In this document: piece by piece, positions 3,027 through 4,689 of the stretch
How positions within the stretch are numbered: position 1 is the first letter of the stretch
Layout: the number at the start of each line of letters is the position of its first letter
Source of the DNA: Myxococcus eversor
GTDB lineage: Bacteria; Myxococcota; Myxococcia; Myxococcales; Myxococcaceae
NCBI RefSeq assembly: GCF_010894455.1
Contig: NZ_JAAIXY010000006.1
Span: 310,001-374,000, forward strand
Length of the DNA stretch: 64,000 nucleotides
Direction of reading: 5' to 3'
Notes under the pieces: generated by a model
The model's database searches: none
What the model was told of the DNA's origin: nothing
What the model saw: the letters and a program-made list of their open reading frames with translations, nothing else
Position numbers and translations under genes: made by a program

Positions 3027-3443
3027 ATGCGCCTGACCGCGACGATGCCCTGGTTGCTGGCCCTGCTCCTGGTGGGCGTGGCCGGCTGCAACCAGCCCCG
3101 CTTCGGCACACCGCAAGATGCGTATACGTCCTTCCACCGGCTGGTGAAGCGCGGCGAGTTCCGCGCGGCCTGGGGCGCCTTGTCCCAGCCCACCCAGACG
3201 GCCCTGACGAAGCGGGCCCAGGCGGTGGCTGACGCCTCCGGGGGCGCGGTGAAACCCGAGCCCCTGGGCCTCTTCTTCGCGAATGTCCCCCCTCCTCCGG
3301 ATGTTACGGAGGTCTCCCTGGTCCGGGAGGCGAACGACGAGGCGACCGTGCTCGTTCGCTCGTCAGGCAGCACCCACGAGGTCCGGATGGTCCGTGAGCC
3401 GTCTGGGTGGAAAGTGGACCTCTCAGCCTCCCTCCAGCCGTGA
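3027..3443 (+). CDS. Small lipoprotein, NTF2/DUF4878-like
   Basis: A 138-residue predicted lipoprotein. A hydrophobic leader ends in the lipobox VAGC with Cys21 as the lipidation site. The mature part starts with a helix of the kind 'TPQDAYTSFHRLVKRGEFRAAW', typical of DUF4878/NTF2-like small periplasmic lipoproteins, and ends with beta strands that contain a VRMVREPSGWKVDL segment. The ATG at 3027 is chosen because it precedes the signal peptide directly; the frame is open 26 codons further upstream without signal character. Function is unknown. It sits between the cyclase and the Hfq-like gene, all on the same strand. Confidence 0.75.
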   Translation: MRLTATMPWLLALLLVGVAGCNQPRFGTPQDAYTSFHRLVKRGEFRAAWGALSQPTQTALTKRAQAVADASGGAVKPEPLGLFFANVPPPPDVTEVSLVREANDEATVLVRSSGSTHEVRMVREPSGWKVDLSASLQP

Positions 3444-3486: not shown

Positions 3487-4689
3487 GTGAACGATCGGAA
3501 GACACGGCGGGTGGTTCCCGCGGTCGAAGTCATCCGGCGGCCGGCCTCGACGCCCGGCAGCGCCGCCCAGACTCCGTCCCCCTCGGAATCCGCCCCTCCG
3601 GCGCCCACACCGCGCCCCACGCCCACGCCCCGGCCTGCCGCCGGCATGGCGCCCTCCACCCCGCCCGCCCCCCGGCCCGCGGGAGTGAATCCCGCGCCCC
3701 GTCCCGCCGCCCCCACGGCGACGGCCCCGGCCACCCCCCCGGCGCTCCCGCCCACTCCCCGGCCCGCCGGCGTGGCTCCCGCCCCCTCGCCGCGTCCGGC
3801 GGGGGTGACACCCGGCGCCCGTCCGATGGCACCGCGAGCACCCGGAGGACCCGGCGGACCCGGTGCCCGTCCAGGAGGCTTCGGTGGCCGGCCCGGAGGC
3901 TTCCGCTCCTCCACGCCGCGGCCTCCGCCCACGCCCGAGCAGATCCTCGCGCTGGCGCAGCGCGAGCATGTGCCCGCGCGCATCGCCAAGGGTGAGCTGG
4001 AAGGGAAGATGAAGGCGCGCATCTGGCGCAAGCTGCACGCCGAGGAGGCGAAGCGCTTCGACCAGGTCTACGAGCTGATGGGCCAGACGCCGGACCTGTC
4101 GCTGGGGGATGCCTTCGGCGTGCTCCAGAGCGGCATGACGGTGGCGGAGTTCATGGCGCGCAAGGAGCGCACCCAGCGCAAGGCGGCCATCAAGCAGGCG
4201 CGCGGCGAGGTGGACAACGCCGTGGTAGCGGAGCTGCTCGGCGGCTTCATCTCCGGCAAGGTAGAGGTGTCCGTCGTCCTGGCGGAGCGCTCGCTGCTGG
4301 ACACGCTCGTCGCCGAGGAGCCCATCGCCTTCACGCTGGAGCGCACCGGGCGGCTGGAGAAGCTGCAGGTGGTGCTGCTGGCGCGCCGCGCCGAGTGGGA
4401 GCGACTGCTGCCGAGCCTGGAGCGCGATGCCAAGCTGACGCAGAAGCCGTCCACGGTGGCGCGTCAGCCGGACAAGCGTCCGTACTCGGACCCGCGCGCG
4501 TTCCTGGACCACCTGGGCGACACGGTGAAGCTGGTGCTGCGCAACGGCATCACCCTCCAGCTCCCGCTGATGCACGTGGGCCGGTTCGACCTGCTGCTGG
4601 GTGAGCCGGGCCACGAGGTCTTCGTCCCACTCCACGCCCTGCTCAAGTTCGAGCCGGGTCCCTCGAGCGCTCCCGCCGACGAGGCCTGA
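3487..4689 (+). CDS. Proline-rich protein with C-terminal Hfq/Sm-like domain
   Basis: A 400-residue protein with three parts. Residues 1 to about 150 are low-complexity Pro/Ala/Arg/Gly with repeated PRPAG(V) units and are surely disordered. Residues about 155-320 are helical and charged (an IARIAKGELEGK-type segment, then an RKAAIKQARGEV helix). Residues about 336-388 read like an Hfq core: a DP start, VKLVLRNGITLQL from residue 347, then GRFDLLLG, VFVPLHALLKFEP and an acidic tail. The NGI-LQ, F-x-LL and HA spacing all match the Sm1 and Sm2 motifs of Hfq. GTG start at 3487, 43 bp after the lipoprotein. The RNA-binding role is inference from the fold match. Confidence 0.7.
   Translation: MNDRKTRRVVPAVEVIRRPASTPGSAAQTPSPSESAPPAPTPRPTPTPRPAAGMAPSTPPAPRPAGVNPAPRPAAPTATAPATPPALPPTPRPAGVAPAPSPRPAGVTPGARPMAPRAPGGPGGPGARPGGFGGRPGGFRSSTPRPPPTPEQILALAQREHVPARIAKGELEGKMKARIWRKLHAEEAKRFDQVYELMGQTPDLSLGDAFGVLQSGMTVAEFMARKERTQRKAAIKQARGEVDNAVVAELLGGFISGKVEVSVVLAERSLLDTLVAEEPIAFTLERTGRLEKLQVVLLARRAEWERLLPSLERDAKLTQKPSTVARQPDKRPYSDPRAFLDHLGDTVKLVLRNGITLQLPLMHVGRFDLLLGEPGHEVFVPLHALLKFEPGPSSAPADEA

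Follow-up and report, generated by a model that had tools for sequence, protein, structure and literature searches.

A diverged Hfq-like Sm domain re-housed in a larger protein of bacteria thought to lack Hfq

Locus, protein layout and distribution

The window analysed is a stretch of 64,000 nucleotides from Myxococcus eversor. A real gene with a GTG start is located on its + strand at positions 3487–4689 and encodes a protein of 400 residues, as described in an earlier note made from the sequence alone. Nucleotide differences between relatives are concentrated at third codon positions, as expected of a translated, conserved protein. The closest relatives are found in Myxococcus, with the protein from M. 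qinghaiensis being 98% identical over the core, which agrees with the myxobacterial origin given in the earlier note. The upstream neighbour, 43 bp before the gene, is a conserved small lipoprotein-like gene (3027–3443, + strand) without a Pfam match. The earlier note described a proline-rich tail and an Sm domain, both of which are recovered here, but its description left out a conserved region of about 180 residues, an N-terminal PxVEVIRRP motif and the conserved gene order.

Near the N-terminus, PAVEVIRRP (residues 11–19, 3517–3543, + strand) follows the basic stretch NDRKTRR. The pattern [VI]EV[IV]RRP is conserved throughout the protein family, down to its remotest representatives and those from genomes of 2.3–2.7 Mb, and in the M. 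eversor genome the exact N-terminal motif occurs only in this gene. PxVEVIRRP is near-invariant although the arm behind it varies freely, and the distance from VEVIRRP to the core ranges from 43 to 174 residues among relatives. The motif looks like a putative docking motif.

The arm itself (residues 20–144, 3544–3918, + strand) varies in length and sequence. It consists of 32% Pro, 19% Ala, 14% Gly and 9% Arg, and residues 21–144 have a pI of 12. Judging from this composition, the arm is presumably disordered, in line with the earlier note. An RGG-like Gly/Arg/Phe repeat, GARPGGFGGRPGGFR, can be read from the sequence at residues 126–140 (3862–3906, + strand), and similar repeats are present in other Myxococcus.

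Conservation is highest in the approximately 180 residues between the arm and the Sm domain. Their first portion (residues 150–240, 3934–4206, + strand) contains the motif VPARIAKGELEGKMKCRIWRKLHAEEAKRFDQ, is strongly conserved in alignments and was predicted by AlphaFold to be helical, with pLDDT values of about 75–80 over most of it; in the model, helices cover the first ~110 residues of the core. This helical region has a pI of 10, and pI values of 10–12 mark the N-terminal half as very basic. Neither a Pfam family nor a convincing sequence match among solved structures was found for the helical region. The middle region that follows (residues 241–328, 4207–4470, + strand) is conserved as well. 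For this segment two AlphaFold runs differ, one giving two strands at low confidence (pLDDT about 40) and the other all helix, and hhalign yielded a marginal match of 19 residues to the Hfq N-terminus (score 18.0 vs 16.4 in shuffles). A second, degenerate Sm repeat had been suspected here from the hydrophobic pattern. Since the hhalign match lies just above shuffles and the two predictions disagree, it is not claimed.

For the distribution of the gene, 195 Myxococcota genomes were searched, 96 from the GTDB family of the window (Myxococcaceae) and 99 from other families. A single full copy is present in each of 93 of the 96 Myxococcaceae genomes, and the gene is retained in genomes of 2.1–2.7 Mb. 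It was not found in the 99 genomes of other families and is thus confined to Myxococcaceae among the genomes searched. The three Myxococcaceae genomes without it have completeness values of 79%, 85% and 98%; in the 98% genome the contig ends just past the lipoprotein gene. The order ribF (− strand), trmB, GGDEF response regulator, lipoprotein-like gene, target gene, cupredoxin and DinG-like helicase is common to Myxococcus, Corallococcus and Hyalangium; the Archangium loci agree over the extent that they cover. Two of the small genomes, of 2.3 and 2.7 Mb, have kept ribF, trmB, the lipoprotein gene and the target gene together, without the GGDEF gene. Where a locus extends far enough, the lipoprotein-like gene almost always lies upstream of the target. 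The trmB locus of other families contained the target in no case, even with relaxed filters. Since the gene is found only in Myxococcaceae and the trmB locus elsewhere lacks it, its origin, or its divergence past the point of recognition, is placed at the base of the family. Homologs of the lipoprotein occur near trmB in some other myxobacterial families without the target. Plasmid and phage records yielded no relatives.

The strongest of the weak matches to the profile of the C-terminal domain in other myxobacterial families were discarded after reading the sequences. Three of them, in one genus, are the same unrelated ORF with a YrdC-type look, and among the others an ABC-transporter ATPase, a flagellar rod protein and an apparently non-coding ORF were recognised.

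The C-terminal domain and its relation to Hfq

The Sm domain comprises residues 333–390 (4483–4656, + strand) and has the signature SDPRPFL..G..V.L.LRNGI.L..PL..VG[RP]FD.LLG...E.FVPLHA. The order of Hfq motifs given in the earlier note is present as D335-P336, V347-x-L349-x-L-R-N353-G354-I355-x-L357-Q358 and F367-x-x-L370-L371, but the last element reads V380-x-x-H383-A384 rather than V-x-x-x-HA. Likewise, the LQ element exists in the M. eversor protein but its Gln is not conserved among family members (E, Q, S or T).

A profile of the C-terminal domain was compared with 177,635 PDB sequences by hmmsearch. All 28 matches at E≤10 are Hfq or Hfq-like, the best being M. jannaschii Hfq (E=2.7e-5), and B. 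subtilis Hfq was matched at E=0.003. A profile of the whole core, built from 31 relatives, gave the same picture: Hfq or Hfq-like chains made up 16 of 16 matches at E≤10, the best with E=8e-5, and all 16 matches fall on the C-terminal domain. Profile-profile alignment to Hfq with hhalign resulted in E-values of about 2e-6 to 9e-6, which refer to a one-template comparison. Against a six-sequence Hfq alignment without an archaeal member, the score was 24.9, compared with 17.4 for the best of 200 column shuffles and 2.4 for the reversed profile. Reciprocally, with an HMM of seven Hfqs all 2,900 shuffled sequences scored below each of the 29 family members; when the M. jannaschii sequence was left out, this held for 17 of the 29. 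The single target sequence matched nothing relevant in Pfam or NCBIfam, and none of the 29 members matched the Pfam Hfq model (PF17209), even at E=10. Weak NCBIfam matches to TIGR03794 and TIGR01874, each in one or two relatives, were treated as chance. By these profile comparisons the link to Hfq is real but distant, and strongest to an archaeal Hfq-like protein. It is highly probable that the Hfqs are the true nearest relatives of the Sm domain.

For the structure prediction, the 256-residue core was submitted to AlphaFold2 together with 24 relatives. The whole model is of moderate confidence (pLDDT 62, pTM 0.36). Its C-terminal domain, with pLDDT values of about 63–83, consists of a short helix (H193-196, model numbering) and five strands (E202-207, 212-220, 224-229, 232-237 and 241-246). 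Thus, the N-terminal helix and the five-stranded, strongly bent small barrel of the Sm/LSm superfamily are both present in the model at moderate pLDDT. In a Foldseek search of the PDB, each of the 50 best matches is an Hfq, with E-values from 7e-4 to 4e-3 and a probability of 1.0. VIA-align ranked Gemin6 first (Z 8.3), followed by M. jannaschii Hfq (8.0), C. crescentus Hfq (7.8) and further Hfq and LSm proteins; two designed SH3-like barrels reached Z of about 7.3. Because Z values near 8 are common for models without clear matches, the assignment of the fold relies on the agreement of sequence and structure. On this joint basis we are very confident of an Sm fold for the C-terminal domain. 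The Sm/Hfq-type barrel postulated in the earlier note was accordingly borne out, and no different fold, which the note had named as grounds for rejection, emerged from AlphaFold, Foldseek or VIA-align. Since the VIA-align scores of Gemin6 and Hfq are tied, the fold alone says Sm and the sequence says Hfq.

On alignment with E. coli Hfq, the positions D9-P10, L26, N28, G29, F/Y42, H57 and A58 prove to be conserved in the family; P10 and N28 each show a single exception. In Hfq, F42 is the stacking residue and H57 the histidine of the pore. The former corresponds to F/Y367 in every member and the latter to the invariant H383 (codon 4633–4635, + strand). Of the proximal-pore set, therefore, F/Y42 and H57 are conserved and Q8 and K56 are not, the alignment at Q8 being uncertain by one or two residues. 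An invariant Arg stands in place of V27, Gly in place of D40, Asp in place of V43 and Pro-Leu in place of Y55-K56. Thus, the Lys-His pair of the YKHAI motif is lacking: Pro occupies the Tyr position and Leu the Lys position, each in 28 of 29 members, and His and Ala are invariant. The distal face also deviates, with V, T, Q or F at the position of Y25 and mostly T at that of K31. The rim arginines are missing from the helix-to-strand region, which reads HLGDT. With a pI of 6.4, the Sm domain taken alone is slightly acidic. Since most of the canonical RNA surface is lost, we do not claim membership in the Hfq family proper.

Among known proteins, MJ1435 from Methanocaldococcus jannaschii (PDB 2qtx, 4x9c, 5dy9) is the best sequence match and a tied-best fold match (Z 8.0). 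Both proteins possess LRNG and an HA motif and lack the bacterial Sm1 Asp. MJ1435, however, is a 71-residue chain with KHA, whereas the target has PLHA and about 330 additional N-terminal residues. Bacterial Hfqs (B. subtilis 3ahu, L. monocytogenes 4nl2, E. coli 1hk9, C. crescentus 6gwk) share with the target the Sm domain with an N-terminal helix, and the N28-G29, F/Y42 and H57-A58 positions are kept. In contrast to them, the family of the target does not conserve K56, Q8, D40, Y25 and the rim arginines, carries its tail at the N-terminus instead of the C-terminus, adds a conserved helical region and stays below detection by the Pfam Hfq model. Gemin6 of the human SMN complex (PDB 1y96) has the Sm fold and superimposes with Z 8.3 over 68 residues, but it is eukaryotic, only 9% identical and without a detectable sequence-profile link. 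Gemin6 is an Sm protein that serves protein assembly. The C-terminal domain is thus a distant, Hfq-like version of the Sm domain, placed within a larger protein in organisms reported to be without Hfq; its fold is well supported and its function putative. It would also illustrate the extent to which the Sm/Hfq fold may diverge and, housed in a larger protein, escape standard family models.

Possible functions of the protein

Myxobacteria including M. xanthus are reported to lack an hfq homolog, and another protein may act as chaperone of Pxr, the sRNA that controls multicellular development of M. xanthus (PMC5684412, PMC5568312). That myxobacteria have no recognised Hfq, as also stated in the earlier note, agrees with our search: it returned no Hfq from 146 Myxococcota genomes, and its controls were positive in five well-known genomes. 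In the M. eversor genome, no match to ProQ/FinO (PF04352) or CsrA (PF02599) was found anywhere, including the target. The target gene is therefore one concrete candidate for a chaperone of Pxr. A literature search, with most subscription journals outside its scope, found no description of the gene. A pxr-like site is present in the M. eversor genome. In a search for the 20-base pxr site with up to two mismatches, a pattern that may miss diverged pxr, it was found in 54 Myxococcaceae genomes from six genera only. A specific coupling of the target to pxr was rejected, since the protein is more widely spread than the pxr site matched by this pattern.

Supported at this point are the Sm fold, the Hfqs as nearest sequence relatives, the near-universality of the protein in Myxococcaceae and the synteny. 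The reading that we prefer, with a confidence that is about evenly balanced, is a Myxococcaceae-specific protein whose C-terminal Hfq-like Sm domain forms a predicted ring and which serves as a scaffold or chaperone in RNA metabolism. The Sm domains would assemble into the ring, from which the basic helical regions and the Pro/Arg/Gly-rich arms would radiate outward. Single-stranded, perhaps U-rich, RNA could be held in the pore via Phe367 and His383, and structured or longer RNA by the basic helices and arms, which would take the larger share of RNA holding. The N-terminal VEVIRRP may dock to or recruit a partner. Of the elements of this model, ring formation is probable, and RNA binding in vivo seems slightly less so, though still fairly likely.

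A role as sRNA chaperone is a more tentative proposal, which we regard as rather doubtful. Equally tentative is its broader form, in which the protein would serve Myxococcaceae as their general sRNA chaperone. Under this reading Hfq was lost and an Hfq-like ring was later re-invented or re-acquired, inverted in architecture by its N-terminal arms and additional basic helical domain, and would support sRNAs of the Pxr type, which gate the development of fruiting bodies. Since several of the residues with which canonical Hfq binds RNA are absent family-wide, the diverged RNA chaperone suggested in the earlier note is plausible as a putative function only.

Alternatively, the Sm domain could act like that of Gemin6/7 as an oligomerisation or protein-docking module without RNA, in a scaffold linked, for example, to the lipoprotein or c-di-GMP genes. 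The loss of most canonical Hfq RNA contacts and the slightly acidic domain are compatible with such a module, as are the tied-best fold match to Gemin6 and the neighbouring lipoprotein-like and GGDEF response regulator genes. However, the sequence profiles select Hfq only, the pore residues F/Y42 and H57 are conserved, the remainder of the protein is strongly basic, and the small-genome loci have lost the GGDEF neighbour but retained the target. We consider a docking module possible, with a minor share of the probability. It is unlikely that the protein binds ribosomal RNA or the nascent ribosome as an assembly or hibernation factor, with the basic helical region as its business end and the Sm domain in a minor role. 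This region is indeed the most conserved and is basic, and the gene persists in genomes down to 2.1 Mb, but the region has neither a Pfam match nor a convincing match among solved structures, and absence from the other myxobacterial families searched would be unusual for a ribosome factor. Finally, a convergent SH3-like or Sm-like barrel with chance motif similarity to Hfq is very improbable: small barrels are common, as the two designed SH3-like barrels illustrate, and the E-values are modest and partly dependent on the M. jannaschii sequence, but every PDB sequence match (28 of 28) is Hfq or Hfq-like, shuffles never reached the hhalign score, and the NG turn and the HA motif align with small gaps only. 

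Diverged copies and a database record

In a few genomes of the family, diverged and often fragmentary second copies were observed that cover the middle and Sm regions at about 35% identity (L077:3372-4631, L078:3090-4355, L079:3942-4217, L080:3579-4112 and L081:3187-3996). They have no N-terminal arm and little of the helical region, and one ORF comprises only 92 residues. The usual high-GC bias at third codon positions is missing in these copies, which suggests decay or foreign origin. A Myxococcus-type locus with full synteny and a target protein of 86% identity is also contained in BNCN01000001.1 (L010), a record titled 'Comamonas sp. KCTC 72670', whose organism name is probably wrong.
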